Both the position numbers and the translations under genes were made by a program. From contig NZ_JACZEP010000015.1 of NCBI RefSeq assembly GCF_014863355.1, positions 1 through 64,000 of the forward strand: a stretch of 64,000 nucleotides of DNA. Direction: 5' to 3'. This document shows positions 206 through 15,190 of this stretch, piece by piece (position 1 is the first letter of the stretch; every line of letters starts with the position of its first letter). A model generated the notes under the pieces. It did no database searches. It was not told where the DNA came from and saw only the letters and a program-made list of their open reading frames with translations. The DNA is from Aminobacter carboxidus (GTDB lineage: Bacteria; Pseudomonadota; Alphaproteobacteria; Rhizobiales; Rhizobiaceae).

Positions 206-264
206 TGTGAACCAGTCCGCCAAGCCAGGTGAAAATCCCCGCGCAGGATGTGAAAAATTGTAAC
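206..264 (+). promoter_or_regulatory. Putative response-regulator sites upstream of the demethylase-like gene
   Basis: TGTGAA at 206-211, GGTGAA at 228-233 and TGTGAA at 249-254 recur at 22- and 21-base intervals. The last copy is followed four bases later by TGTAAC (259-264), giving TGTGAA-N4-TGTAAC. The same arrangement occurs upstream of torR and of the tmoX-like gene. The block lies between the torT stop and the start of the demethylase-like gene, where its promoter should be. TorR binding is inferred. Confidence 0.45.
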
Positions 265-267
265 TGG

Positions 268-1347
268 CTACTGCACCTCGAAGGTCGGCTTGAACCACGC
301 CGGGGCGAGCGAGCGCTCGAGGTCGAGCGACTGGACATTGTTCCTGTCGATCACCTCGACCGGCGGCCCGACATGGCGGTAGCGCAGCGTACCTTCGATC
401 GCCCGGATGGCCTGGTCGATGGCGATACGCCCCTGCAGCGGCGGCGAGTCGGTCGGCGCCGCCACCACCTTGCCGCGGTTGATCTCGCGGAACGTGCCGT
501 GGGTGAAATAGTCGGCCAGCACCTGGACGTGGTTGGCGCGGCCCTGGGCCCTGAGGATGCTGACCGCGGCATCGGCCGTCGGCGCGCTGCCGACGATGTA
601 GTCGATGTCGGGCTGGGCCTCGAGCATCTCCTCGATCAAGAGCAACTGGATCTCGACGCCGGTGTCGCCCCATTTGACCGCCGCGATCTCGGCCGAGCTC
701 TGCTTCAGCGCGCGCTGGAAACCGGCCTCGACGAACTTCACCCAGCCGGCACCCTTCGGCCCGGGAAACCAGGCGACGCTGACCGGCATGGTGCCGGCCG
801 GATGCAGCCGCGCCAGATAGGCGCCGATGGAGTGGCCCATCTCTTCCCACGAGACGCCCGATTTCGCCGCAATGCCGGCGTCGTCGATGTCGTTGACCGC
901 GGCGATGACAGGGATGCGCCTGGCGATTTCCCTGATCGTCGGCGTCAGGCCCTCATAGGACACGGTGCCGACGATGAGCGCGTCGGCAGTGGCGCTGCAG
1001 GTACGGATCTGCTCGATCTGGCGGTCGAGATTGGGATAGCCGCCGGCCTCGACCACGGTCAGCTTGACGCCGGCCGTGCGCGCCTGCTCGACCATGCCGT
1101 AATTGACGCTGACCCAGTAGGAATCCTTGAGATGCGGATAAGATGCGCATATCCGCCACGGCTTGGCCGCCCTGGCGACCGGCTGGTAGTCGATCGTGAC
1201 AGGCTTTCGCGAATAGTCGAATGGCGGCTCCCAGGCGTTGAGCTTCCATGTCGTTTCCGCAGCAACGGCGGAATGGGCCAGGACGCACGCCACAAAGGTC
1301 GTGGCAACCAGGTTCAGGCTTCGGCTTGGGGCGGGGGCACGCATCAT
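268..1347 (-). CDS. torT: TorT-like periplasmic TMAO-sensing protein
   Basis: Periplasmic binding-protein-like sensor of 359 residues in the family of TorT, which in TorTSR systems binds TMAO in the periplasm and passes the signal to the sensor kinase TorS. The N-terminus is a signal peptide ending near the AVAAE site (about residue 29). The body shows the type I periplasmic-binding fold pattern, with SYWVSVNYGM, EAGGYPNLDRQ and DALIVGTVSYEGL, as in TorT proteins. The gene is divergent from torS at 1501. ATG-ATG at 1347/1344 are both possible starts; neither has a good Shine-Dalgarno sequence. Ligand specificity cannot be read from the sequence, but gene order torT-torS-torR supports the assignment. 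Confidence 0.8.
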   Translation of the reverse strand: MMRAPAPSRSLNLVATTFVACVLAHSAVAAETTWKLNAWEPPFDYSRKPVTIDYQPVARAAKPWRICASYPHLKDSYWVSVNYGMVEQARTAGVKLTVVEAGGYPNLDRQIEQIRTCSATADALIVGTVSYEGLTPTIREIARRIPVIAAVNDIDDAGIAAKSGVSWEEMGHSIGAYLARLHPAGTMPVSVAWFPGPKGAGWVKFVEAGFQRALKQSSAEIAAVKWGDTGVEIQLLLIEEMLEAQPDIDYIVGSAPTADAAVSILRAQGRANHVQVLADYFTHGTFREINRGKVVAAPTDSPPLQGRIAIDQAIRAIEGTLRYRHVGPPVEVIDRNNVQSLDLERSLAPAWFKPTFEVQ

Positions 1348-1360
1348 GTTACGCTAATGC

Positions 1361-1400
1361 ATGACCCCGAAAATCAAAATCGATTTTCGGGCAGGATCAT
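1361..1400. repeat. Rhizobial-type palindromic element
   Basis: Inverted repeat CCCGAAAATC (1366-1375) and GATTTTCGGG (1382-1391) with a 6-base loop, flanked by ATGA and TCAT. It resembles the short palindromic intergenic elements common in Rhizobiales genomes. It lies in the torT/torS divergent region. Confidence 0.6.
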
Positions 1401-1500
1401 GCCCCATGCAAAGTTCGACAGCGTCGCATTGCGCGTCCAATCGGACACGCAGCACTGGAGACAGCTTCCGCTTGCCGCGCAAACCATGGTTATATGAGCC

Positions 1501-4443
1501 ATGCTTCATAGGTTCGGCATCGGCGGGAGGCTGTTCCTCGCCTTCTTGTGCATCACCGCACTGTCCCTGACATCCGGCATCGTCAGCTGGCTGATCCTGC
1601 GCAACATTGCCGATGCGCAGGCGGTGGTGAACGCCCAGGCCCTGCCGGCGGTGGCAGCGACCCAGCGCACCGCCGAGCTCAGCGCCAAGCTGATCGCCAC
1701 CGCCCCGGCCCTTGCCGCCGTCACCTCGCGCGACGGTCTGCTTGCCGAACAGGCCAAGCTCGCCACGCTGTCGCAGGAGATCGTCAAGTCGCTCACCGAA
1801 GTCCGGCGCCTGTCGATCGACCCCGAACTGGTCGAGGCCTTCGCCGGCTCGGTCGAAAAGATGCTGGCCAATCTCAAGCTAAACAACGAGCTGGTGCGCC
1901 AGCGCCTCGATGAGGACAAGGCCTATCGCGACGGCGCCGAGGCGGCGACCTCGGCGGCGCAGTCGGTGCTGCTTTTGTCGGAAACGCTGATCTCCAACGC
2001 CTCGGCCGGCGCTTCGGCTGTGACGGCGAGCCTCTACGGCCTGATCGGCGAAGCGGGGCGCCGCGAGGACGCCTATATCGCCCTCGACCGGCTGATCGAG
2101 CACGACATCTACCTGATGGAGCGCATGTATGAACTGCGCCACCGCAGCGCCCAGATCAGCCTGCTGATCAACCGGCTCGGCCGCGCCGAAACCCGGGCCG
2201 AGATCAACGAGATCAGCGGCATCTTCCAGGACCACGTCAAGGTCATCCGGCGGCGCATCCTCAGCATCGACGACCCCGTCCGGCGCAAGCAGGGCATGGA
2301 GTTCTTCGGCGCCATCGAGGCGGCGGCCGGCGACGCGCCGGTGTCAGGCTCGATCTTCGGCCGCCGCCAGCGCGTCATCGACCTCGCCGGCAGCCTGGAC
2401 GCGATGGCCGAAGCCAACCGCGATCTCGCCGTGACGCAGAACCAGATCGCCCGCAACATTCTCGACCGCTCCGACGAGTTCGCCCGCACCACGGCCGAAC
2501 GTGCCGACAATGCGGTGCGCATCGGCGTCATCGTGCTTGTCGTCACGCTGCTTGGCGCCATCCTCGCTTCGGGCGCCATCGTCTGGTTCTATGTCGAGCG
2601 CAATCTCGTGCGCCGTCTCAGCGGCCTGTCGCGCGCCATGCAGCGCCTGACGGCGGGCGATCTCGACGTCACCGTCACCGACAGCGGCGACGACGAGCTG
2701 CGCACCATGGCGGTCGCCGTCAACCAGTTCCGCGACGAGTCGCGCCGCCGCCTCGAGCTGGAGCAGGAGCGCGCCCGCATCACCGACGAGCTCCGGCGCC
2801 ACCGCGAGGAGCTGCAGCAGCTCGTCGAGGAACAGACCGAGCAGATCAGGCTGGTCAACACCCGCCTGCGCCAGGAGGCGATCGACCATGACGAGGCGCG
2901 CGCCCGCGCCGAACAGGCAAGCAGCGCCAAGTCGGCCTTCCTGGCAACGATGAGCCACGAGATCCGCACGCCAATGACCGGCATGCTCGGCATGATGCGC
3001 CTGCTTGCCGACAGCAGGCTGGGGCCGAAGCAGCGCGAGCACCTGTCGGTCGCCGCCAGTTCGGGCGAAGCACTGCTCGGCATCCTCAACGCCATCCTCG
3101 ACTACTCCAAGGTCGAGTCGGGCAATGTCGGCGTCGACAAGATCGATTTCGACCTCGGCAAGCTGGTCGGCGGCGTTGTCGCCTTCATGCGCCCTATGGC
3201 CGCCGAAAAGGGCCTCGACCTCGGGCTGGTCCTCGACCGCAAGCTGGCGCAAGCCTTCACAGGCGATGCCGGCAAAATCCGCCAGATCCTGTTCAACCTC
3301 GTCAGCAATGCCATCAAGTTCACCGAGCACGGCCAGGTCCGTGTCGACGTCACGGTGGTCGCCAACCGCAAGGACATGCAGACCTTGCGCCTCGCCGTCA
3401 CCGACACCGGCATCGGCATCGCGCCGGAGCGCCAGCAGGACGTCTTCCAGCCCTTCACCCAGATGGATGCCTCGATCACCCGCCGCTTCGGCGGCACCGG
3501 GCTTGGCCTTGCCATCAGCCGCGAATTCGCCAGCCTGATCGGCGCCGAGCTGCAGGTCGCCTCCGAGCCCGGTGCGGGCAGCACCTTCTCGCTCGACATG
3601 TCGCTGCGCAAGGCCAAGGCCGCCGAGCTTTCGACTGAAAAGCAGCGCCGCTCGCGCAAGGCCAAGCCGCCATCCTGCAACATCCTGGTGGTCGAGGACG
3701 ACGACGCCACGCGGCTGGTCTCAACGACCGTGCTGGCCAATGCCGGCCACCGGGTCAAGGCGGTCAGCACAGGCTATCTCGCGCTCGAGGCGATCGCCGA
3801 CTTCCGGCCCGATCTCGTCGTCATGGACGTCAGCCTGCCCGGCATCGACGGCATCGAGACGATGAAGCGCATCAGGCAGGCGCTTGCGGCCCCCGACCTG
3901 CCTGTTGTGGCGATGTCGGCGCATGTTTTCAAGACCGACATCGCCCGTTATCTCGATGCCGGCGTCGACGCCTTCGTTGCCAAGCCGATCGTCCACGAGC
4001 AATTGCTCGACGCTGTCGCTTCGCTCGGTGGCCCCACCCTGCCGCCACAGCAGGCCCATGACGCAGCGGCGCTCGACGTCGCCGCCTTCAAGGCCGATAT
4101 CGATGCCCTGGGCTCCGAGACGGTGCGGCGGCTGCATCGCATCGCCCATGACAGCCTGCCCAGGCGCTTCCAGGCGATGCGCGACGCCGTCAAGGCGGAT
4201 GATCGCGAAGCCTTGCGCGACCTCGCCCATGCCACCCGCAGCACCGCCGGATCGCTCGGCTTCCCGCGCCTGCTGCAGGCAGCCGAGACGCTCGAAACAG
4301 CGGCGGCACAAAGGCCGGCAAGCGAGCTCAGGCAGATCGTCAGCGCCTGCGAAACGGCCTTTGGGGAAGGCTCGCGGCAATGGGAAGAAATGTTCGGGGA
4401 AAAGACGCTCGAAGGCAGTGCCGCCCCCGTCCACCCGGCTTAG
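1501..4443 (+). CDS. torS: TorS-like hybrid sensor histidine kinase
   Basis: Inner-membrane hybrid kinase of 980 residues, the normal length and layout for TorS. A transmembrane helix (about 11-33) is followed by a long helical periplasmic sensor region, a second helix (about 338-362), HAMP, a coiled coil, the HisKA box SHEIRTP with His486, the HATPase domain with N and G boxes (FNLVSNAIKFT, DTGIGI, GGTGLGLAI), a receiver with phospho-acceptor Asp776 in VVMDVSLPG, and a C-terminal HPt domain with His910 in DLAHATRSTAGS. This gives a four-step His-Asp-His-Asp relay ending on TorR. It is divergent from torT and convergent with torR, the two stops being 6 bases apart. Confidence 0.88.
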   Translation: MLHRFGIGGRLFLAFLCITALSLTSGIVSWLILRNIADAQAVVNAQALPAVAATQRTAELSAKLIATAPALAAVTSRDGLLAEQAKLATLSQEIVKSLTEVRRLSIDPELVEAFAGSVEKMLANLKLNNELVRQRLDEDKAYRDGAEAATSAAQSVLLLSETLISNASAGASAVTASLYGLIGEAGRREDAYIALDRLIEHDIYLMERMYELRHRSAQISLLINRLGRAETRAEINEISGIFQDHVKVIRRRILSIDDPVRRKQGMEFFGAIEAAAGDAPVSGSIFGRRQRVIDLAGSLDAMAEANRDLAVTQNQIARNILDRSDEFARTTAERADNAVRIGVIVLVVTLLGAILASGAIVWFYVERNLVRRLSGLSRAMQRLTAGDLDVTVTDSGDDELRTMAVAVNQFRDESRRRLELEQERARITDELRRHREELQQLVEEQTEQIRLVNTRLRQEAIDHDEARARAEQASSAKSAFLATMSHEIRTPMTGMLGMMRLLADSRLGPKQREHLSVAASSGEALLGILNAILDYSKVESGNVGVDKIDFDLGKLVGGVVAFMRPMAAEKGLDLGLVLDRKLAQAFTGDAGKIRQILFNLVSNAIKFTEHGQVRVDVTVVANRKDMQTLRLAVTDTGIGIAPERQQDVFQPFTQMDASITRRFGGTGLGLAISREFASLIGAELQVASEPGAGSTFSLDMSLRKAKAAELSTEKQRRSRKAKPPSCNILVVEDDDATRLVSTTVLANAGHRVKAVSTGYLALEAIADFRPDLVVMDVSLPGIDGIETMKRIRQALAAPDLPVVAMSAHVFKTDIARYLDAGVDAFVAKPIVHEQLLDAVASLGGPTLPPQQAHDAAALDVAAFKADIDALGSETVRRLHRIAHDSLPRRFQAMRDAVKADDREALRDLAHATRSTAGSLGFPRLLQAAETLETAAAQRPASELRQIVSACETAFGEGSRQWEEMFGEKTLEGSAAPVHPA

Positions 4444-4448
4444 GAGTC

Positions 4449-5183
4449 CTACGGGAGAGCCGTGGCGCGCCCGTGCGGAGCAGCGTCTGGTGCAAAGAAG
4501 TAACCCTCGCCATGGGCGGTGACGATGATGCGCGGGGTGCGCGGGTTGTCGCTCAGCTTCTGCCTGAGGCGCCTGACCAGCACGTCGACGGTGCGGTCGC
4601 TGGCATCCCATTCGCGCCTGGAAATCTCGTGCAGCAGCCGCTCCCGCGACAGCACCTGGCCGGGATTGGCCGTCAGCACCGACAAAAGCTTGAACTCGGC
4701 CCCGGTCAGCTCGACGAAGGTGCCGTCGGCGGCCTGCAGCGTGCGCCGCGCCACCTCCAGCGTCCAGCCATGGAACTGGCGCGAGCCTGAGGCGACAGGC
4801 GGCTGCCGGCCCTTGCCGACGCGGCGCAGCAGCCCCTTGACCCGGGCGAGCAGCTCGCGGTGCTCGACCGGCTTGGTGACATAGTCGTCCGCCCCGATCT
4901 CAAGCCCGACGATGCGATCGACGGTATCGGTGCGTCCGGTGACCAGGATGATGCCGACGTCGGATCGTTCGCGCTGCTCGCGCGTCAGCCTGAGGCCGTC
5001 CTCCCCCGGCAGGTTGATGTCGATCATCAGCAGATCGGCCGGATGCCTCGACATGATGGCACGCATCTGCTCGCCGTCGCCGGCCTCGCTGACCTTGTAG
5101 CCTTCGGCCAGGAAATAGCCGGCAAGCTTGGCCCGCGTGACCGGATCGTCCTCGACGATCACGATGTGATGTTGAACCCGCAT
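4449..5183 (-). CDS. torR: TorR-like OmpR-family response regulator
   Basis: A 244-residue response regulator. The receiver has the acidic pair EDD at 11-13 and phospho-acceptor Asp55 (LLMIDINLPG). The C-terminal winged helix has RRLRQKLSDNP and IITAHGEGYFF, typical of OmpR/TorR. The start at 5183 follows GGGAGG by about 10 bases; an upstream in-frame extension has no supporting site. It should be the final acceptor in the TorT/TorS relay and a DNA-binding regulator of the TMAO genes. Its own promoter carries the TGTGAA-N4-TGTCAA motif 24 bases before the start codon, which suggests autoregulation. Confidence 0.85.
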   Translation of the reverse strand: MRVQHHIVIVEDDPVTRAKLAGYFLAEGYKVSEAGDGEQMRAIMSRHPADLLMIDINLPGEDGLRLTREQRERSDVGIILVTGRTDTVDRIVGLEIGADDYVTKPVEHRELLARVKGLLRRVGKGRQPPVASGSRQFHGWTLEVARRTLQAADGTFVELTGAEFKLLSVLTANPGQVLSRERLLHEISRREWDASDRTVDVLVRRLRQKLSDNPRTPRIIVTAHGEGYFFAPDAAPHGRATALP

Positions 5184-5206
5184 GCCATCTTGTCCTCCCG
5201 ACTTTG

Positions 5207-5222
5207 TTGACATCATTTCACA
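5207..5222 (-). promoter_or_regulatory. TGTGAA-N4-TGTCAA motif upstream of torR
   Basis: Read on the minus strand this is TGTGAAATGATGTCAA: two TGTnAA half-sites 10 bases apart, as expected for tandem binding of OmpR-family regulators. A 22-base block covering most of it (5210-5231) is identical to 9046-9067 upstream of the tmoX-like gene. The function is inferred. Confidence 0.5.
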
Positions 5223-5377
5223 AGTCGGCCCGCACCGGCAACGAGCTTGCAGCGCTCGCATGTCCGAGGCAAAGCGGCAACGTCGCGAATGCTGCACTGC
5301 CTGAGGGATGAAACGAGCCGGCGGCGCAACTGTAATGCGACGCCGGCCTTCGCCATCACGGCCTGGATTCTGCCACG

Positions 5378-6445
5378 TCAGCCTTTCCTCGCCGAGAAGC
5401 AAGGCAGGACGTCTTCTGCGAAATATGGCTCCTGATTGACCCAGAACATGTAGCTGACCTTGAGGAAATCCTGGGCAAAGGCATGGAGGACCGGCACCCG
5501 GTTGGTGCGCTTGGCCACCACATTCGTCGAGCCCGTCTCGCCGACATAGTTGCCGTCCTGCACCGCAATGCCAAGCGGCACGGTGAACTTGCCTTCATGC
5601 ATCATTGCCAGGGCATGGTTGAGCTGACCCTTTTTCATATACATGAGATCGGGAGCCCCCATGCCGAGGCCGATCTTGTCGCCAAACTCATAGATTCCGC
5701 GGAGATATCCCTTGTCCTCCCAAGGCAGCCATTCGCCCGGCATGAAGTTGGCGTAGAGCATGGTGGTCGAGGTCGGGAACGCCGTTTTCATGGCACGCAT
5801 GTTGGATTTGAGCGCCGCAACATATTTGTCCGGGGTAAAGGACCTATCCGTCTCAGGCGAAACCCCGATTGCCGTTTCCTGCAGGTTGATGCCTTCGATC
5901 ACGCCGTCGAACTGCTTGCCAAGTGCGGAAAGAAGTGCCGCAAAACGCAGCTGGACCTTGGCGTTCCATCGCTTGGCGACCCAGCCTTCGACAGCCCCCC
6001 CGTCGGTGTATTGCGCGGTGACGCCGCCATCATAGTCGCCCGTCAACAGATAGTCGGGCACCGGCTTGTACTCGGGCGAGAAGGACGCTTCCTGCAACTG
6101 GATGAACAGCCGCTTGCCATGCCTGGCGAGATAGTCGACGTCGGACTGGATCAACGAGAAATCATACTGTCCTTCAGTCGGTTCGAGCTGGCGCCACGCA
6201 TACATGATCTGCGCGCCGACAAAGCGATCGCTGGTCAAGAAGGCATGGTCGCGGATCGCCTCGCGATCCCGGCTGAAATAGACGAAATGTTCGATCTTGT
6301 CCGCCGCCAGCGGGCATGCCGCGCCCGTATACTGCTTGTAGGCATTGGCATATCGATTGGCGGGATTATCCCCTGCCATGGCGGAGCTGGCGGCAATCGC
6401 GGCGCCAAGCGCCAAGACAAGACCGAGAGAACGTTTCAATTTCAT
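5378..6445 (-). CDS. Secreted TIM-barrel-like protein, possible glycoside hydrolase fold
   Basis: A 355-residue protein with a clear signal peptide (KRSLGLVLALGAAIAASS, cleavage near AMAGD). The mature part begins with CPLAADKIEHFVYFSRDRE and contains AQIMYAWRQLEPTEGQYDF, the pattern seen at the start of beta-galactosidase/cellulase-type TIM barrels, and later EGINLQETAIG and LYANFMPGEW. I do not recognise a specific family, substrate or catalytic pair with certainty. It is probably periplasmic or secreted. It lies between torR and a second two-component system on the same strand; neither relationship is proven. ATG at 6445 is preceded by a GGGGTAG site. Confidence 0.6.
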   Translation of the reverse strand: MKLKRSLGLVLALGAAIAASSAMAGDNPANRYANAYKQYTGAACPLAADKIEHFVYFSRDREAIRDHAFLTSDRFVGAQIMYAWRQLEPTEGQYDFSLIQSDVDYLARHGKRLFIQLQEASFSPEYKPVPDYLLTGDYDGGVTAQYTDGGAVEGWVAKRWNAKVQLRFAALLSALGKQFDGVIEGINLQETAIGVSPETDRSFTPDKYVAALKSNMRAMKTAFPTSTTMLYANFMPGEWLPWEDKGYLRGIYEFGDKIGLGMGAPDLMYMKKGQLNHALAMMHEGKFTVPLGIAVQDGNYVGETGSTNVVAKRTNRVPVLHAFAQDFLKVSYMFWVNQEPYFAEDVLPCFSARKG

Positions 6446-6569
6446 AGGTCTACCCCTAGTGGATCGAGGCCTGCAGGCCCGTTGCCCTCCATTGTCTAGT
6501 TTTCGGGCGAGCTGGTTTCGACCTCGAAGTGGTGCAACCCGCGTGCAGATTCTGTGCAGGCGACAGGAA

Positions 6570-8105
6570 CTAGTCGAACGCGATCTCGAAAACGGCGCCG
6601 CCGATATTCGCGACTGGCGTCAGGCGCGCTCCATAAAGGTCGAGGATGGCAACCACGATGGCCAGGCCGAGGCCGGTTCCACCCTCTTCCCGGCGCGTGG
6701 TGAAGAACGGCTCGGCCAGGCGGCCAAGGTCGATGTCGGCAAACCCCGTACCATTGTCTGAAAGCCTGAGGATCCGTCCAGCCCAGACCAGCTCGAGCCT
6801 GGTCGCCCCATGGTGGCGCGCATTCTGTGCCATATGCGAAAGCACCGTTTGTCCATGTGCAACCGACAGCGGCAGGACGGCATCCAGCGGAGCCAGGCTG
6901 ATATCGAGCTCGGCAATCTCGGGCAGCATCTCCCTGATCCGACCGGGCTTGCCGCGCAAGCTCTCGCGCGACCTCGTCATGTCGCGGAGCTGGTGCAGCA
7001 GCAAGTCCATCCGCTGCCCCTGGGCCTTGATGGTGCCGATCAGGCTGTGCTGCGCTTCATTGGACAGGTGGCCATCCTCGAGAAGCTCGGCAGCACCCAT
7101 GATCGAGGTAACCGGCGATTTGAGCTCATGGGTCACGTGGTTGGTGTAGATGCCGATTTCCTTGCTGCGCCGCGACAGCGTGCCCGCCATGGTGATGACG
7201 GCCTCGCCGAGTTCGGCAATCTCCCGCATGCCGTAATGGCCGAGCGGAGCAAGTTCAAAATGGCCGCCACCGGCGACAGCTCTCGACTGGTGGCGCAGGG
7301 CGCGGATCGGCCGGAGCATCGTCCGCACCAGCAAGGTTCCAACGACAGCGGCGCTCAGCAACGTCACCGCGACCAGGACGCTGAAGGCGATGCGCTCGCC
7401 GGCGAAATACTCCGTCAGCCCTGGCGCGGTCCTGGACAAGTAGACCGCGCCGATAACCCGATTCTGGCTGATGACAGGATAGGCAATCAGCACCCGGAAA
7501 CCTGTGCCTCCGCCAAGCGCTGCCAGGCGAAACCGCGTGCCCGCGTCACTGCGCCAGCGCAGTGCCGCCCCGACATCGCCTTGCAGCGCCTGCCGAACCT
7601 CCGGCACCGCGGCAAAACTCGCCGGCTCGCGGGCGAGCAAGTCGATCCCTTGATGGTCGAGGAAAACGACAGTCGAAAGCGTCGTACGGCTGGCATTGTC
7701 GGCCAGGGCACTCAGCCCCGGCGCAATCCTAAGATATCGCGGATCGAGCCGCTCCGTGGTGGGCACGGGATCGGGGCGGACAGGCTCGACCACATCCTGA
7801 CGCAGGTTCAGCAGCGGTCGAAAGGTTCGTGACGCCGCACTCCAGAATATGCGCTTGGACGGTGGCAGATAGTATCCAGGCAGGGACCCTTCTGCTTCGG
7901 GCGACCCGGCCTCGATAGCCACAACATAGGCCCCGGCATAGATCGCCGCCTGCTTGATCAGCGAAGCCTCCGTCTCGTTGACGAGCCGGTTCGTTCCGAT
8001 CTGCAACGCCAGCGTCGCCACGATCGGCACCGCAAGCAGGCTTGCGCAGACAAGCGCCACCACCAGCGACATTGACGGCCGCCATTTCCGGGCTATCTGG
8101 GTCAC
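6570..8105 (-). CDS. CreC-like sensor histidine kinase
   Basis: Membrane histidine kinase of about 511 residues. A transmembrane helix near the N-terminus (LVVALVCASLLAVPIVATLAL) is followed by a periplasmic sensor region, a second helix (VLVAVTLLSAAVVGTLLV), HAMP, the H box THELKSPVTSIMG (His about residue 326) and an HATPase domain with SHMAQNARHHG, LSDNGTGF and GGTGLGLAIV. The HELKSP box is like that of CreC. GTG at 8105 overlaps the TGA of the upstream regulator gene; TTG at 8129 or ATG at 8072 are alternatives. It is translationally coupled to its partner regulator. The signal it senses is unknown. Confidence 0.8.
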   Translation of the reverse strand: MTQIARKWRPSMSLVVALVCASLLAVPIVATLALQIGTNRLVNETEASLIKQAAIYAGAYVVAIEAGSPEAEGSLPGYYLPPSKRIFWSAASRTFRPLLNLRQDVVEPVRPDPVPTTERLDPRYLRIAPGLSALADNASRTTLSTVVFLDHQGIDLLAREPASFAAVPEVRQALQGDVGAALRWRSDAGTRFRLAALGGGTGFRVLIAYPVISQNRVIGAVYLSRTAPGLTEYFAGERIAFSVLVAVTLLSAAVVGTLLVRTMLRPIRALRHQSRAVAGGGHFELAPLGHYGMREIAELGEAVITMAGTLSRRSKEIGIYTNHVTHELKSPVTSIMGAAELLEDGHLSNEAQHSLIGTIKAQGQRMDLLLHQLRDMTRSRESLRGKPGRIREMLPEIAELDISLAPLDAVLPLSVAHGQTVLSHMAQNARHHGATRLELVWAGRILRLSDNGTGFADIDLGRLAEPFFTTRREEGGTGLGLAIVVAILDLYGARLTPVANIGGAVFEIAFD

Positions 8106-8794
8106 GCGGTACAAGGTCCAGCGATGCAATTGCCAAGCCGCAGCCCCACCCCTCTCACCGTTTCGATCACGTCGGCGTAACCAAGGGCCGCGGCCTTGGC
8201 GCGGATGTTGCGCACGTGACTGTCCACTGTACGCCCCGACAAGGTGTTGTTGCCGCCATAGGCCTTGTCGATCATCGCCCCACGGCCAACGACGATGCCG
8301 GGTCGGGCCGACAGGATTTCCAGCACCGAAAATTCCGTTGCCGTCAAAGCCAGATCCTTTCCGGCAAGGGCGCAGATGTGGCGTTCGCTATCGAGCGTGA
8401 GGTCGCCGTGCCTGGTGATGCCAACTGCCTGCTTGCCTCGTGCCAGTATGGCCTTGATCCGCAGCAGCAGTTCGCGCGGCGAGAACGGCTTGCTGACATA
8501 ATCGTCCGCCCCAAGCTCGAAGCCTACGATCCGGTCGACTTCGTCGTCATGCGCGGTCAGGAAGACGATCGGAACATGTGAGCTGGCGCGGATGGCCTTG
8601 CAGCATTCGACCCCGTCCATGACAGGCATTCCAATGTCCAGCACCACCAGGTCGGCTTGGTGTCGCCGCAACTGCTCCAGAGCCAGGCGCCCGTTGGCCG
8701 CCTGATGGACATGCATGCCCGCCCGTTCCAGCGCAATGCCGATCACGTTGCGGATATCCGGGTCGTCATCGACAACAAGAATGCTGGGGTTCAT
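8102..8794 (-). CDS. OmpR-family response regulator
   Basis: A 230-residue regulator starting MNPSILVVDDDPD. The receiver phospho-acceptor is Asp53 (LVVLDIGMPVMDG), with conserved Thr and Lys in FLTAHDD and VSKPFSP. The winged-helix DNA-binding domain has LTATEFSVLEIL, SGRTVDSHVRNIR and ETVRGVGLRL. ATG at 8794 fits the family start; an in-frame extension to 8911 would run into an 18-base tandem repeat and is less likely. It forms an operon with the kinase that follows. Its upstream region is shared with the divergent tmoX-like gene, so it may act on that gene or on the secreted protein at 5378-6445. Confidence 0.82.
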   Translation of the reverse strand: MNPSILVVDDDPDIRNVIGIALERAGMHVHQAANGRLALEQLRRHQADLVVLDIGMPVMDGVECCKAIRASSHVPIVFLTAHDDEVDRIVGFELGADDYVSKPFSPRELLLRIKAILARGKQAVGITRHGDLTLDSERHICALAGKDLALTATEFSVLEILSARPGIVVGRGAMIDKAYGGNNTLSGRTVDSHVRNIRAKAAALGYADVIETVRGVGLRLGNCIAGPCTA

Positions 8795-8860
8795 AGCGCG
8801 ATCACCACGGAGACATGCCACAAGATGGCCGAACCAGCTCCTTTTATCGGAGCGGGCGTC

Positions 8861-8932
8861 TGCAAGCCAAGACCTGGTTGCAGGCCAAGACATTGTTTCA
8901 GGCCAAGACATTGTTGCAGGTCAAGACCGGGG
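8861..8932. repeat. Four tandem copies of an 18-bp unit
   Basis: Units at 8861-8878, 8879-8896, 8897-8914 and 8915-8932, with consensus TGCAGGCCAAGACATTGT; the middle two differ by one base. They lie 67 bases upstream of the response-regulator start, in the 414-base divergent region before the tmoX-like gene. The period is not that of a protein-coding repeat in a convincing frame, so a regulatory array or a slippage product are both possible. Confidence 0.85.
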
Positions 8933-9042
8933 CGGTCCGGCAACCTCCGATACAAAAGCGCGAAGATGATGGCGCTTCTGCGCTGGCCTTGTGGCTCTCA
9001 ACCGGAAAACAGCCGGCGCGTTTGGTCGTGCGACCCGCCCCA

Positions 9043-9058
9043 TTAACATCATTTCACA
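9043..9058 (-). promoter_or_regulatory. TGTGAA-N4-TGTTAA motif upstream of the tmoX-like gene
   Basis: Minus-strand TGTGAAATGATGTTAA, 150 bases before the tmoX-like start codon. The block 9046-9067 is a perfect 22-base match to 5210-5231 upstream of torR. This suggests a common regulator, most simply TorR. The rest of 8795-9208 holds the 18-bp tandem repeat and presumably two divergent promoters. Confidence 0.5.
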
Positions 9059-9208
9059 AGTCGGCCCACGACTTTTACACCCCGACCGACACCGGTTCAC
9101 TTCTCACCGCTATGTTTGCCGGGCTGGAGCGGAAAAGGCATCGGCCCATAGAGGCCAACATCCAAAACTCCACGGGAACGATCGCAACTCAAAACAATGG
9201 GAGCTTCA

Positions 9209-10162
9209 ATGAGCAAGTTCACGAAGTCCGCAAGCATGGCCACGATCATGGCGTTTGCGGCCGGCACGGCGTTCGCCCAGGATTCCACCGACGTCATCAA
9301 GATCCCGACCCACAACTGGTCGAGCCAGATCGTCGGCGCCCACATCGTTGGCAAGCTGCTCGAAAAGGGCGGCGCCAAGGTCGAGTATGTCTCCGCCGAC
9401 AGCCAGGTCGTCTACACCGCTTTGTGCGAAGGCGACGTCAGCCTGGTGCATGAGGTCTGGGAAGGCGCCTTCGGCGTTGCGTTCCAGAAGGTGGTCAAGG
9501 AGGGCTGCGTCGTCGATGCCGCCACCCATGATGCCAAGACCCGCGAAGAATGGTGGTACCCGACCTATGTCGAGGAAGTCTGCCCCGGCCTGCCCGCCTG
9601 GGAGGCGCTGAACGCCTGCGCCGACAAGTTCGCCACGGCAGAGACCGCGCCCAAGGGGCGGTTCCTCGGCGGTCCGGTCGACTGGCTCAAGCATGACGCC
9701 GAGCGCGTCGAGGCCCTTGCCATGAACTTCGAGGTCGTCAATGCCGGCTCGTCGGCGGCACTGTGGGCCGAACTCGAATCCGCCTTCAAGCGCAAGGAGC
9801 CGATCGTCCTGTTCAACTGGACGCCGAACTTCGTCGAGGCGCTTTATGACGGCAAGTTCGTCGAATTCCCGGCCTTCGATCCCAAGTGCAAGGACGATCC
9901 GGCCTGGGGTTCGAACAAGGAACTGTCCTATGACTGCGGCAACCCGAAGGATGGCTATCTGAAGATCGCCGCCTGGAAGGAATTCCCGACCAAGTGGCCC
10001 AAGGCCTACGCCATCCTGCAGAAGATCAACTTCTCCAACATGGACATCGCCGTGCAGGCCAAGCTCGCCGACATCGACAACATGGAGCCCGAGGCGGCCG
10101 CCGACAAATGGCTGGCCGACAACGAGGCACGCTGGAAGGCCTGGCTGGGTTCCGCCAGCTAA
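9209..10162 (+). CDS. tmoX: TmoX/ProX-type periplasmic quaternary-amine or TMAO binding protein
   Basis: A 317-residue ABC substrate-binding protein of the OpuAC/ProX class. The signal peptide ends near AFAQD. Several Trp residues are placed as in aromatic-cage proteins for methylated amines: IPTHNWSSQ, VHEVWEGAFG, REEWWYPTY and VLFNWTPNF. ATG at 9209 follows GGGAGC at good spacing; the ATG at 9197 is less likely. It heads an operon with an ATPase and a double-length permease. Glycine betaine import is the general role of the family; TMAO is favoured here because torTSR and a possible demethylase lie just upstream and the gene shares a promoter motif with torR. Confidence 0.7.
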   Translation: MSKFTKSASMATIMAFAAGTAFAQDSTDVIKIPTHNWSSQIVGAHIVGKLLEKGGAKVEYVSADSQVVYTALCEGDVSLVHEVWEGAFGVAFQKVVKEGCVVDAATHDAKTREEWWYPTYVEEVCPGLPAWEALNACADKFATAETAPKGRFLGGPVDWLKHDAERVEALAMNFEVVNAGSSAALWAELESAFKRKEPIVLFNWTPNFVEALYDGKFVEFPAFDPKCKDDPAWGSNKELSYDCGNPKDGYLKIAAWKEFPTKWPKAYAILQKINFSNMDIAVQAKLADIDNMEPEAAADKWLADNEARWKAWLGSAS

Positions 10163-10268: not shown

Positions 10269-11297
10269 ATGTCCGAAGCAAAAATCGCATGCCGCAACCT
10301 TTGGAAGCTCTACGGCTCCGATCCCGCCGGCTTGCTGCGCCGCAACCACAACAACCCCTCCATCGAAACCATCAGGGCCGAAGGCTACGTCCCCGCCGTC
10401 CGCAACGTCTCGTTCGACGTGATGCCGGGCGAGATCCTCGTCGTCATGGGCCTGTCCGGCTCGGGCAAATCGACCCTGCTGCGCTGCCTGGCACGGCTGA
10501 TCGAGCCGACGTCGGGCGAGGTCATGTTCGAGGGCCGCGACATCCTCGCCGCCAGCGAGCGCGAACTGATCGAACTCAGGCGCCACAAGATGGGCATGGT
10601 GTTCCAGCATTTCGCGCTGCTGCCGCACCGCACCGTACTCGACAATGTCGCCTTCCCGCTCCAGGTCCGTGGCACCGACCGGCACAGCCGCGAGGCCCGC
10701 GCCCGCGAGGTCATCGAACTCGTCGGGCTGAAGGGCCGCGAGGCCTATTATCCGCGCGAACTCTCCGGCGGCCAGCAGCAGCGCGTCGGCATTGCCCGTT
10801 CGCTCGCCGTCGGCCCCGACGTCTGGTTCCTCGACGAGCCGTTTTCGGCACTCGACCCGCTGATCCGCCGCGAGATGCAGGACGAATTCCTGCGCCTGCA
10901 AAAGGTGCTCAACAAGACCATCGTCTTCATCACCCACGACTTCGACGAGGCGATTCGCGTCGCCGACCGCATCGCCATCATGAAGGACGGCGTCGTCGAA
11001 CAGCTCGGCACGGCGGAAGAACTGGTCACCTGCCCGGCCACGCCTTACGTCGCCGAGTTCACCCGCAACGTCGCGCATGACCGCCTGCTGTCGGTGCGAT
11101 CGATCATGGCGCCCGCATCCGCCCGCACCCCCGACGCGGCAGCCGTCCAGGCCCAGGCGCTGCTCGCCAGCGTCGCCCGCCAGGTGCTGTTGTCGGAACG
11201 CCCGGTCGACGTCGTCGACGATGGCGGCGTCCTTGTCGGCACGCTGGCCCGTAACGGCTTGATCGACGCCCTCTATGGCAAGGAGGCGTGTGCATGA
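10269..11297 (+). CDS. tmoV: TmoV/ProV-type ABC transporter ATPase
   Basis: A 342-residue cytoplasmic ATPase for the adjacent importer. Walker A is GLSGSGKST, the Q-loop region VFQHFALLPHRTV, the signature LSGGQQQR, Walker B VWFLDEPFSALD, and the H-loop ITHDFDEA. The RAEGYVPAVRNVSF insert before the P-loop is typical of ProV-type ATPases. The C-terminal region after about residue 265 ends in VVDDGGVLVGTLARNGLIDALYG, a single CBS-like remnant rather than a full pair. The start at 10269 follows GAGAGG. The stop overlaps the permease start (ATGA), indicating translational coupling. Confidence 0.8.
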   Translation: MSEAKIACRNLWKLYGSDPAGLLRRNHNNPSIETIRAEGYVPAVRNVSFDVMPGEILVVMGLSGSGKSTLLRCLARLIEPTSGEVMFEGRDILAASERELIELRRHKMGMVFQHFALLPHRTVLDNVAFPLQVRGTDRHSREARAREVIELVGLKGREAYYPRELSGGQQQRVGIARSLAVGPDVWFLDEPFSALDPLIRREMQDEFLRLQKVLNKTIVFITHDFDEAIRVADRIAIMKDGVVEQLGTAEELVTCPATPYVAEFTRNVAHDRLLSVRSIMAPASARTPDAAAVQAQALLASVARQVLLSERPVDVVDDGGVLVGTLARNGLIDALYGKEACA

Positions 11298-13282
11298 GCG
11301 CCGCGACACTGCCCCGCCAGGAGTCGATGGAACCGCAGACCCAGCTTGCGTCGATGACCAGGCCGCTGCTCGTCATATTGCCTTTCGCCATCCTGCTGCT
11401 GGCCGCCTCCGTGCTGCCCGACTGGGCGGTGCAGGTGCCCAAAGGCTGGACCATCCCCTTCGTCGACTGGGCCAACACGGTCATCGGGCACCTGCGCGAC
11501 GACGCCATCTTCGGGTTGTTTTCGTTCCGCGACCTGACGCGCGGCATTGCCGAGCTGATCACCTGGCCGCTGGCCTTCGTCGAAGGCCTGCTGGTCGCCG
11601 GTTTTCCCAAGCTCGGCATCGCCGCCATGCCCTGGGTGATGACCGCCGGCCTGTCGGGCGTGCTCGGCTGGTATCTGAAAGACTGGCGGCTTGGCGCCCT
11701 GGCGGCAGGCTGCGTCGCCTACATGGCGATCTTCGGCAAATGGGAGCTGTCGATGATCACCTTGTCGGTGGTGCTGGTCGCTGCCCCCATCGCTGGTCTC
11801 ATCGGTTTCGGCATCGGCATTCTCGCAGTCAAGAAACAGTGGTTCGAAGCGCTCATCGTGCCGCTGCTCAACGTGCTGCAGTCGCTGCCGCATTTTTCCT
11901 ACCTGATCCCGATCGCCGTGTTCATCGGCGTCGGCCACAAGGCCGGCACCATCGCCACCGTCATCTTCGCCATCCCGCCGATGGCCCGCCTCACCATACT
12001 CGGTCTCAAGGGTGTTGCCGAAGAGGTCCGCGAGGCCGGCAAGATGGCCGGCTGCACCCGCTTCCAGACCTTGTGGATGGTCGAGATCCCCGCCGCCCGA
12101 CAGCCGCTGCTGGTCGGTGTCAACCAGGTCATCATGCAGTGCCTGGCGATGGTGGTCATCGCCTCCTTCGTCGGCGCGCGTGGCCTTGGCCACGACCTTT
12201 TGTTTCGCCTGCAGGCGCTGAAGATCGGCCAGGCGCTGGAAAGCGGCGTCGCCATCGTGCTGATGGCAATCACGCTCGACCAGCTGAGCCGCGCCGCCGC
12301 CCATAAGCAACCCGCACATGCAGCAACCGACGCCACCTTGCTCGAACGTTTCCCGTTCCTCGCCGCAGCGCTGGCCGTCATTGCCGCCTCGCTGCTCTTG
12401 GCCGCAATCACGCCCTACGCCCAGGCCTGGCCTGCGGAGCTCGCGCTGAGCACCGCACCGTTCTGGGACGCGCTGGTCGACTGGATCACGCTGACGCTCT
12501 ATGACCCGCTGCAATATCTGCGCAACGCCATGCTGCTCTACGTGCTGATCCCGATCCGCGACCTGTTCCAGTCGATCCCGTGGACGGCGATGGTAGCACT
12601 TGTCGCCGCCGCCGGCTGGTCGCTCGGCGGCCTCAGGCTTTCGCTCACCGTCTCCGGCTTCGTACTGTTCATCGCCTTTGCCGGCTACTGGGAGCGCTCG
12701 CTGATCACCGCCTATATGGTGACGGTCGCGGTGCTGCTGTGCATCGCGATCGGCCTGCCGATCGGCATCTGGGCCTCGCGCAGCGAACGCCGCACCGGCA
12801 TCGCCAAGCTTTTGTGCGATACCTTCCAGACCTTTCCGTCCTTCATCTACCTGATCCCTGTCATCATGCTGTTCAAGGTCGGCGACGTCGCGGCGATCTC
12901 GGCCATCATCATCTATGCGATGATCCCGATCGTGCGTTACACCATCTTCGGCCTGCGCAACGTGCCGCAGGAAATCGTCGAGGCCGGCATCACTTCGGGC
13001 TGCACGCAAAGGCAGCTGCTGTGGAACATCCGCATGCCGCTGGCTTTCCCCGAGATCATGCTCGGCATCAACCAGACGATCATGTTTGCGCTGTTCATGG
13101 TCATCATCGCCGCCTTCATCGGCACCAAGGACATCGGCCAGGAGATCTTCCGCGCGCTGACCTTCAACGATGCCGGCAAGGGCCTCGTGCTTGGCCTCTG
13201 CGTCGCCTTCATGGGCCTGACCGCCGACCAGCTGATCACGGCGTGGGCGACGAAGCGCAAACAGCGGCTCGGTCTGGCGTAG
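11294..13282 (+). CDS. tmoW: Double-length ABC permease, TmoW/ProW type (two fused membrane units)
   Basis: A 662-residue inner-membrane protein holding two ProW-type permease units in tandem. Unit one carries the EAA-loop motif EEVREAGKMAGCTRFQTLW and unit two carries QEIVEAGITSGCTQRQLLW; each is flanked by several hydrophobic helices. A fusion means one chain can form the whole membrane channel, as in some TMAO and betaine importers. ATG at 11294 follows AGGAGG by seven bases and overlaps the ATPase stop in an ATGA junction; a GTG at 11288 is less likely. The AGLSG and PHFSYLIPI blocks agree with the family. Confidence 0.82.
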   Translation: MSAATLPRQESMEPQTQLASMTRPLLVILPFAILLLAASVLPDWAVQVPKGWTIPFVDWANTVIGHLRDDAIFGLFSFRDLTRGIAELITWPLAFVEGLLVAGFPKLGIAAMPWVMTAGLSGVLGWYLKDWRLGALAAGCVAYMAIFGKWELSMITLSVVLVAAPIAGLIGFGIGILAVKKQWFEALIVPLLNVLQSLPHFSYLIPIAVFIGVGHKAGTIATVIFAIPPMARLTILGLKGVAEEVREAGKMAGCTRFQTLWMVEIPAARQPLLVGVNQVIMQCLAMVVIASFVGARGLGHDLLFRLQALKIGQALESGVAIVLMAITLDQLSRAAAHKQPAHAATDATLLERFPFLAAALAVIAASLLLAAITPYAQAWPAELALSTAPFWDALVDWITLTLYDPLQYLRNAMLLYVLIPIRDLFQSIPWTAMVALVAAAGWSLGGLRLSLTVSGFVLFIAFAGYWERSLITAYMVTVAVLLCIAIGLPIGIWASRSERRTGIAKLLCDTFQTFPSFIYLIPVIMLFKVGDVAAISAIIIYAMIPIVRYTIFGLRNVPQEIVEAGITSGCTQRQLLWNIRMPLAFPEIMLGINQTIMFALFMVIIAAFIGTKDIGQEIFRALTFNDAGKGLVLGLCVAFMGLTADQLITAWATKRKQRLGLA

Positions 13283-13616: not shown

Positions 13617-14180
13617 ATGACCGATACCGCGCTACTTGTCATCGATGCCCAGGAAAGTTTCCGTCAACGCGCCAACTGGGCGGAGGTGGATAGCCCGACC
13701 TATCTCAGGAACCAGCAGGCGCTTATCGATGGTGCAATTCAAAAGGGCTGGAAGATCGTGCGCGTGTTCCATGCCGAGCCAGAAGGCATCTTCTCTCTCG
13801 CCTCGGGTTTCGTCAGGCCGCTTGCGGAACTCAAGCTCGACAAGCCCGACCTCGAGTTCTTCAAGTTCAGGCATTCCGCCTTCGTCGGCTCGCCGCTTGA
13901 AGTCTACCTGATCGAGAACGGCATCCGTCGCCTCGTCATTTCAGGCATTCGCAGCGAACAGTGCTGTGAGACGACCACCCGCCATGGGTCGGATCTCGGC
14001 TGGCAGGTCGACTACGTTACCGAGGCGACCCATACAATGCCGCTGACCGATGCGGCCGGAAAGACCTGGACGGCCGAAGAGATCAAGGCCCGCACGGCAG
14101 CCGTGCTCGATGGACGCTTCGCCCGCGTCTGCACGATTGCCGAAGCTCTGGCCGGCGAGACGATGGCTGCCGCGGCATGA
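13617..14180 (+). CDS. Isochorismatase-family cysteine hydrolase
   Basis: A 187-residue cytosolic hydrolase of the isochorismatase-like superfamily. The catalytic Asp lies in LLVIDAQESF near the N-terminus and the catalytic Cys in ISGIRSEQCCETTTRHG; between them KFRHSAFVGS supplies the usual substrate region. These enzymes cleave amides, ureas or enol ethers; the substrate is not evident. The gene overlaps the following regulator by four bases (ATGA), so the two are co-translated and the regulator probably controls this gene. Confidence 0.75.
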   Translation: MTDTALLVIDAQESFRQRANWAEVDSPTYLRNQQALIDGAIQKGWKIVRVFHAEPEGIFSLASGFVRPLAELKLDKPDLEFFKFRHSAFVGSPLEVYLIENGIRRLVISGIRSEQCCETTTRHGSDLGWQVDYVTEATHTMPLTDAAGKTWTAEEIKARTAAVLDGRFARVCTIAEALAGETMAAAA

Positions 14181-15190
14181 CAGTGCCGCGTCGGGTTCCG
14201 ACCTATGTGGTACTGCCGGCGCGGACCTTGCTGCTCGATGTCGCGGGGCCAATGGAGGCCCTGCGCTATGCCAATCGGCTGCAGCCCGACGTGCAGTTCG
14301 ACGTCACCTATGTCGGCGCATTGCCAGAGGTTACGACCTCGATCGGGCTGCGTGTCACCGGCATCTCGCCACTGCCCGAGACCATCGAGCCAGGTGCGAT
14401 GGTCGTGCTTGCAGGTGACACCGACGAGCCGATGGACGCGGGCCAGCCGTTCGAGGCAGCCGATGAAGGCTCCGACGAACTGGTCCAGTGGCTGCGGCGC
14501 AGCTTGAAGCCAGGCATTTTGCTCGTGTCGATCTGCTCGGGTGCTCTCCTGGCGGGGCGAGCGGGGCTGCTTGACGGGGTCAAATGCACCACGCATTTCA
14601 CCGACTGCGAACGTCTCGCCCGGATCGCGCCTTTGGCCAAGGTGCTGGAGAACCGGCTCTATGTCGAGGATGGCGAACGCTATACCAGCGCCGGCATCAC
14701 CGCCGGTATCGATCTGATGCTGCATATCATCGGCCGGCTCACCAACCAGGCGGTCTCCGCCGCCGTGGCAAAGTCGCTCGTCGTCTATTTCCGCCGCCTC
14801 GGAACTGACCCACAGCTTTCGCCATGGCTGGAAGGCAGGAACCACATCCACGCGGCCATCCATCGGGTACAAGATGCAATAACGGCCGATCCGGCGCGAG
14901 ACTGGTCGCTTACAGCATTGGCCGACATCGCCATAACCAGCCCCAGGCACCTCAGCCGACTGTTCAACGATCAAACCGGCATGAGCATCCCCAGTTATCT
15001 CAACCGGCTGCGCGTCGCACTGGCCCAGCAGCTTCTGAACGAGACGAGGCTCGACATGGAGCGGGTTGCAGAGCGCGTCGGCTACAGCTCGAGCCGGCAG
15101 TTGCGTCGCGCCTGGGGACGGTTCAATGCGACCCCGCCGAGTGCCCTTCGGCGGGAGGTCGCCTATCCACCTCACCTGCGCAAAAGCTGA
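14177..15190 (+). CDS. GlxA-family transcriptional regulator (DJ-1/PfpI plus AraC HTH)
   Basis: A 337-residue regulator. Residues about 1-180 form a class I glutamine amidotransferase-like (DJ-1/PfpI) domain, with VLPARTLLLDVAGPMEALR at the start and LVSICSGALLAGRAGLLDG around the nucleophile elbow (Cys in SICSGA). The C-terminal third is an AraC-type double helix-turn-helix, with LADIAITSPRHLSRLFNDQ and MERVAERVGYSSSRQLRRAW. The sensor domain usually does not act as an enzyme. It is coupled to the isochorismatase-family gene; the TTGTCC array upstream of that gene is a candidate binding site. Confidence 0.8.
   Translation: MTVPRRVPTYVVLPARTLLLDVAGPMEALRYANRLQPDVQFDVTYVGALPEVTTSIGLRVTGISPLPETIEPGAMVVLAGDTDEPMDAGQPFEAADEGSDELVQWLRRSLKPGILLVSICSGALLAGRAGLLDGVKCTTHFTDCERLARIAPLAKVLENRLYVEDGERYTSAGITAGIDLMLHIIGRLTNQAVSAAVAKSLVVYFRRLGTDPQLSPWLEGRNHIHAAIHRVQDAITADPARDWSLTALADIAITSPRHLSRLFNDQTGMSIPSYLNRLRVALAQQLLNETRLDMERVAERVGYSSSRQLRRAWGRFNATPPSALRREVAYPPHLRKS

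Follow-up and report, generated by a model that had tools for sequence, protein, structure and literature searches.

The closest described counterpart of the promoters discussed here is that of torC in Escherichia coli K-12, in which four direct-repeat boxes start at relative positions 0, 10, 31 and 53 and are followed by TAAGAT at 68. DorR of Rhodobacter is a relative of TorR, and activation of the OmpR/PhoB type, as at the pho box, relies on tandem direct repeats that replace the -35 element at a short, fixed distance from the -10. Autoregulation of torR in E. coli is reportedly the subject of Ansaldi et al. 2000, to go by its title. A passage of PMC10845959 places the torC -10 site within TTGCT-N4-AAGAT, covering TAAGAT, and an excerpt of PMC9239176 gives the E. 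coli tor box as CTGTTCATAT. In Ruegeria pomeroyi, according to PMC13390433, tdm and further methylamine genes are under direct control of the AraC-type TmaR, whose signal is a downstream catabolite, and TmoR is a repressor; TorR has no occurrence in the text of that source as available. Considered here are positions 1 to 64,000 of contig NZ_JACZEP010000015.1 of Aminobacter carboxidus ("the window", the whole 64,000-nucleotide stretch), which encodes TorT, TorS and TorR together with a predicted trimethylamine N-oxide (TMAO) uptake system, tmoXWV, and a TMAO demethylase-like gene, tdm. The promoters of tmoX and tdm have the layout of torC, and TorR is most likely the regulator of these arrays. 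A search of open-licence papers, by titles and summaries, found none on TorR control of tmoX or tdm.

A sequence-only reading of the window had reported TGTGAA-N4-TGTnAA at three promoters, those of tdm (249-264), torR (5207-5222) and tmoX (9043-9058). The coordinates are confirmed; the torR and tmoX copies have the strict form, and the tdm copy, which ends in AAC, fits only the relaxed TGTGAAN4TGTNA. This relaxed form has exactly three matches in the window, at these same genes, against 0.03 expected, and none of 100 shuffled windows attained three. Nor is the motif present at random frequency genome-wide: the strict form occurs twice in the whole 6.29-Mb genome, both times at the TMAO locus in the window. 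The three sites are real, chance is excluded, and boxes 1-2 of the classical tor-box array give the motif when reverse-complemented. It had been taken as a unit of two half-sites for a regulator dimer. The torR copy has boxes 1-2 only; at tmoX and tdm the unit is four boxes plus a -10, and each motif site there covers no more than the upstream portion of a promoter module of 74 bp.

These two promoters align without gaps, with TTnAC boxes starting at 0, 10, 31 and 53 and a TAnnnT hexamer at 68-73, that is, with box starts spaced 10-21-22 and the -10 lying 15 bp past the start of box 4. On the forward strand toward tmoX, boxes 1 (TTAAC, 9043-9047) and 2 (TTCAC, 9053-9057) make up the third motif site (9043-9058); box 3 (TTTAC, 9074-9078) follows in register 21 bp past box 2, box 4 (TTCAC in CGGTTCAC, 9096-9100) 22 bp past box 3, and the predicted -10 (TATGTT, 9111-9116) 15 bp past the box 4 start, a position shared with the torC -10 and one at which TAnnnT stands in all 29 promoters compared below. 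On the reverse strand toward tdm, boxes 1 (260-264) and 2 (250-254) make up the first site (249-264), boxes 3 (TTCAC, 229-233) and 4 (TTCAC in TGGTTCAC, 207-211) are in-register pattern matches, and the predicted -10 (TAAGCT, 191-196) has TAnnnT at the common position. When the 100 bp past box 2 of window tmoX, of window tdm and of E. coli torC were resampled with first-order statistics, none of the 300,000 draws made for each promoter reached the remaining 11 of 11 score points.

Relatives were gathered through a TorT search of named genomes, which gave 23 loci including Aminobacter, Pseudaminobacter, Mesorhizobium, Aestuariivirga and gammaproteobacteria, and a TmoX search of 297 family genomes, 86 of which matched and the best 30 loci of which were analysed. 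All box spacings within a set range were scanned over 29 alphaproteobacterial promoters, which include close relatives and hence are not independent: all 18 torR-divergent (or once divergent) tmoX promoters and all seven torT-adjacent tdm promoters among the alphaproteobacterial loci examined, and four DUF3291 promoters. Two loci titled Gammaproteobacteria (L044 and L045, scores 17 and 18) were excluded. The 10-21-22-15 spacing is found at 18 or more of 19 points in 29/29 promoters (18/18 tmoX, 7/7 tdm and the four of DUF3291) and ranks first within each class; the runner-up spacing is found in 15. Of 116 boxes, 115 have C as the fifth base, where E. coli has T, and the box core is TTnAC(A) here as opposed to TTCAT there; the E. 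coli sequence CTGTTCATAT is absent from tmoX and tdm, the core there being TTnAC. The claim of a tor-box array thus rests on layout and linkage, with the box consensus read as having diverged from the E. coli letters.

The -10 (TAnnnT) belongs to the conserved block, with a G two bases ahead of it in 27 of the 29 promoters, and this is what would favour seeing in the block a mere core promoter, shared because the regions upstream of tmoX and tdm were duplicated or descend from one ancestor, and answering to no specific regulator. Against this, four phased boxes ahead of a -10 exceed a core promoter, the tmoX, tdm and DUF3291 promoters have by eye little in common outside the boxes, and TmoX-like loci without TorR lack the block. 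We regard this reading as very improbable.

Presence of the array follows TorR. Among the best 30 TmoX-like loci, drawn from the 86 matching genomes, it was found in 9/9 with TorR nearby (in two of these, the window and G207, torR lies past an insert, outside the fetched stretch) and in 0/21 without; these 21 TmoX-like proteins are 42-61% identical to that of the window, and betaine/choline binding proteins of other kinds may be numerous among them. Locus L090 came to light through its array, its genome (G221) not being one of those matched by TorR at E<=1e-75; the TorR then seen to adjoin the array is 55% identical. Eight of the nine family genomes, of 297, that have TorR at E<=1e-75 carry the simple motif roughly 25 bp away from where the TorR match begins; its conservation beside torR orthologs is borne out. 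The loci scored for the full array had been chosen as TorT, TorR, TmoX, Tdm, DUF3291, TorA or motif matches, and the scores therefore show where arrays stand within loci and give no genome-wide rate. Over 1,794,384 positions, two scored 16, one 17 and 60 (redundant) 18-19. Some genomes were reached twice, and the sequences of G051/L035, G143/L046, G261/L037 and G238/L039 agree, for which reason distinct strings were also counted: over 2,203,980 positions 37 distinct sequences scored at least 17, and each of them belongs to a promoter next to torR (that of tmoX, that of torC, or torR by itself), to a tdm adjoining torT, or to a DUF3291 gene in a genome that has TorR.

In genome-wide scans, a composite pattern of boxes 2-3-4, allowed up to three mismatches, met only tdm and tmoX in the window's own genome, both perfectly. 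A slightly looser pattern with up to two mismatches gave 35 matches in the 297 family genomes, of which 12, including all eight perfect ones, fell in eight of the nine genomes with TorR at E<=1e-75, and 23 in other genomes; since the reversed-pattern control gave 33 matches (by the analyst's column count), none of them in the nine TorR genomes, the 23 are at chance level. Twelve further genomes yielded 16 matches, in nine of them, all at the TMAO locus or DUF3291 genes, and two control matches in two others.

Several observations count against control of these arrays by TorR. One of the nine TorR genomes, G052, has a TorR-like protein (54% identity) and no motif site; it also has the highest TorA-like score (1032.9 of 1465 bits), in a gene about 5 kb from the torR-like gene, and its locus may be a respiratory one. 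When TorR was sought across the phylum, 40 of 398 genomes matched and loci were obtained for 30, one being that of the window; of the other 29 TorR-like loci, many of which may be ArcA-type paralogues, a single one (L195) has the full array beside the regulator. In the examined stretches of L050 and L052-L054 no array scored 17 or more, and no TorR was found beside TorT there. All seven distinct tdm promoters adjoining torT have the array, yet 13 other distinct tdm upstream regions score 10-13 and have none; those of L122, L140 and L141 (too short) and of L127-L129, L131 and L132 (N-terminus missing) were left unscored. Box 1 is weaker at tdm, NTNAC instead of TTnAC, and the four DUF3291 promoters were chosen by score, from six homologue loci inspected. 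Finally, the pattern and score were derived from these same promoters, which makes the perfect scores of the latter partly circular; independent evidence comes from the match with E. coli, from remote relatives and from controls that lack TorR. In G151 and G089 one such array-less tdm follows tmoX on the same strand at a distance of about 3.2 kb and could be read from the tmoX promoter. As separate observations, two TorR-like loci (L177 and L180) have upstream sequence like box 3, box 4 and the -10 in register, with poor boxes 1-2 (15/19), and in Mesorhizobium sp. Root157 (L038) a tdm-type array with one mismatch to the composite lies past torT with no tdm found beside it, tdm being elsewhere (G303:C24).

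The torR side of the locus has a history of its own. The operator there (5207-5222, forward strand) consists of boxes 1-2 only (TTGAC at 5207 and TTCAC at 5217), with the start of box 1 24 bp from the torR start codon; boxes 3-4 and a -10 were sought in register at this copy and none was found. It is part of a 25-nt segment (5207-5231, forward strand) repeated directly at 9043-9067, also forward, with one mismatch, the copies lying 3,836 bp apart; the perfect 22-base match noticed earlier between the torR and tmoX sites is confirmed within it. As that match reflects duplication, the two motif copies have one origin and are not independent occurrences. The repeat flanks a 3.8-kb insert (5232-9042) that splits a once-divergent region and encodes, all on the reverse strand, a GH-like protein (5378-6445), a histidine kinase (6570-8129) and RR2, a CreB-like response regulator of the OmpR family (8102-8794). 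Most alphaproteobacterial relatives have torR and tmoX side by side in divergent orientation, 162-179 bp apart (start codons as called by the analyst), and the single site that the two share ranks among the best-conserved parts of the intergenic alignment. We infer that the insert parted torR from tmoX and that the segment with boxes 1-2 was duplicated, each gene keeping a copy, the order of these events being part of that inference.

RR2 is itself of the OmpR family and directly adjoins the site at tmoX, and it could be asked whether the array belongs to it and not to TorR. However, of the loci examined, just three, those of the window, L032 (A. ciceronei) and G207, contain the GH-like gene, the kinase and RR2 (identity of 45% or above), with the motif standing on both the torR and the tmoX side of the cassette in each, and the array is present in loci that lack these genes. 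Identity to E. coli TorR is 33% for RR2 and 56% for the TorR of the window, and E. coli torC shares the array layout; ownership by RR2 is accordingly very unlikely. Directly upstream of the RR2 gene, at 8861-8932, an 18-nt unit is repeated four times in tandem (78-100% identity to the first), within a longer reading frame that runs on into RR2.

TorT, TorS and TorR of the window each score above a curated NCBIfam cut-off. The periplasmic TMAO sensor gene torT (268-1347, reverse strand) has 391 bits with NF008185 (cut-off 200) and 311.3 with TIGR02955 (310); the hybrid sensor kinase gene torS (1501-4443, forward) has 717.5 with TIGR02956 (676.5) and the TorS sensor domain PF21689, and is below a second TorS model, NF008543 (395.5 against 982). 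The OmpR-family response regulator gene torR (4449-5183, reverse) has 307.1 bits with NF008034 (275), and its product, 56% identical to that of E. coli K-12, agrees with it in 12 of 14 residues of what we take to be the recognition helix (RTVDVLVRRLRQKL versus RTVDVLIRRLRHKL). TorR is most likely the regulator of the arrays because it is encoded beside the array in nearly every array locus, because of this overall identity, and because of the likeness in the presumed helix. The tmoX-like gene (9197-10162, forward) encodes a substrate-binding protein of the OpuAC type (PF04069) and is followed by a tmoW-like ATPase gene (10269-11297) and a tmoV-like permease gene (11294-13282), together 10269-13282 on the forward strand, which match models of betaine/choline-family transporters. 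Of tdm the window holds the first 54 codons (2-163, reverse), truncated at the contig end; DUF1989 and GCV_T domains, which we take to define TMAO demethylase (Tdm), were read on a full-length relative in L033. The C-terminal part of a tdm lies at the edge of another contig (G000:C9:3-1094), as if two near-identical copies had been collapsed in assembly. No TorA above the TIGR02164 cut-off (1465 bits) was found under any of 18 genome handles (two or more of them repeats), a cut-off that the E. coli control passed; the best TorA-like score in the window's own genome, 632.7 bits, is on a different contig (C12).

Downstream of tmoV, 13617-15190 holds a putative isochorismatase-like gene and a gene for an FtrA/GbdR-like AraC regulator (14177-15190), for neither of which the other loci examined show a match exceeding 40% identity. 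An AraC-type protein acting as TmaR does could in principle own the repeats, and binding of TmaR to the tdm promoter is reported for R. pomeroyi in PMC13390433; the FtrA/GbdR likeness of the window protein falls under the cut-off. The other loci, mostly reaching about 1.7-2.2 kb past tmoV, lack this AraC gene (the remainder of those genomes was not searched for it), and the array goes together with torR and is laid out like the E. coli tor boxes, leaving an AraC-type owner little credibility. Very improbable, too, are half-palindromes for a CRP/FNR-type protein: TGTGA, the CRP half-site, does occur in all three sites, but the TCACA arm is absent at CRP spacing, and the pattern is one of direct repeats in one orientation at 10/21/22. 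The CRP/FNR, TmaR-like, RR2 and core-promoter-only explanations were all rejected.

A further target is predicted away from the TMAO locus. In A. niigataensis (G261) one pattern match outside that locus lies ahead of a DUF3291 gene, and DUF3291 relatives in G306 and in G301, which has two copies and the second of them split between frames, are preceded by arrays scoring 18-19 that begin 101-106 bp ahead of the gene start. The neighbourhoods of these genes are, by eye, dissimilar. A score of 13 is reached by a G297 copy interrupted by stop codons and by the homologue of G225, a genome without a TorR match at E<=1e-75; at the cut-offs used, DUF3291 is not matched in the window's genome. Full tor-box arrays at DUF3291 genes were seen in L146, L147, L148 and L150. 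A search of solved structures with a DUF3291 protein gave no match at E up to 1, and the term was absent from the papers matched in a literature search that included it. In some relatives this dispersed gene is thus a predicted TorR target.

The explanation that best covers these observations as a whole, and that we hold to be very probably right, is that TorT, TorS and TorR, through tor-box arrays, drive TMAO uptake and demethylation and limit torR. TorT would sense periplasmic TMAO, a signal suggested by its family membership, and TorS would phosphorylate TorR. Phosphorylated TorR would then fill boxes 1-2 and afterwards boxes 3-4 at the tmoX and tdm promoters; with box 4 about at the -35 position, 15 bp (start to start) from the -10, TorR could recruit RNA polymerase and switch on tmoXWV for uptake and tdm for demethylation. 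At torR, the lone pair of boxes 1-2, placed 24 bp ahead of the start codon, would let TorR limit its own synthesis. Activation from box 4 and limitation through boxes 1-2 are proposed because of the E. coli precedent, and TorR binding, the direction of regulation and TMAO as signal are all put forward as predictions. The TorR regulon that the sequence-only reading foresaw in this lineage is supported by comparative evidence over torR, tmoX and tdm, with TorR binding as its prediction, and is amended in three respects, in that the unit at tmoX and tdm has four boxes and a -10 in place of two half-sites, that two of its three occurrences stem from one duplication and that DUF3291 is added in some relatives as a predicted target.

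As in E. coli, TorT, TorS and TorR are encoded beside the array and boxes 1-2 lie next to torR, with box 1 at 22 bp from torR in E. coli and at 24 bp in the window; the window differs in that its targets are genes of TMAO uptake and demethylation and not of TMAO reductase, in its second, detached array at tdm, and in a torR operator that is, in this lineage, a separate duplicated copy. The pho box resembles the tor array in placing direct repeats where the -35 would be, near the -10, and differs in box sequence and in the 21/22 spacing of boxes 2-3-4. TmaR and TmoR of R. pomeroyi likewise control tdm and other methylamine genes, whereas the window is predicted to use a periplasmic sensor and a two-component relay.

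It seems somewhat probable, further, that in Aminobacter-type alphaproteobacteria the whole TorT-TorS-TorR switch, with a 74-bp geometry unchanged from that of E. coli torC, serves TMAO uptake and demethylation in place of anaerobic respiration, that TorR regulons can be recognised in sequence by the 10-21-22-15 geometry, and that DUF3291 is an unrecognised part of TMAO metabolism. The insert in the divergent control region would illustrate how a duplication can leave each of two parted genes beside an operator. For the search for TorR targets, the geometry would provide a sequence rule, and it names DUF3291, a gene of unknown function, as a candidate in TMAO metabolism. A textbook respiratory regulator and its promoter geometry would then seem to be conserved across proteobacterial classes, with an output that differs, being nutrient use in the one case and respiration in the other.

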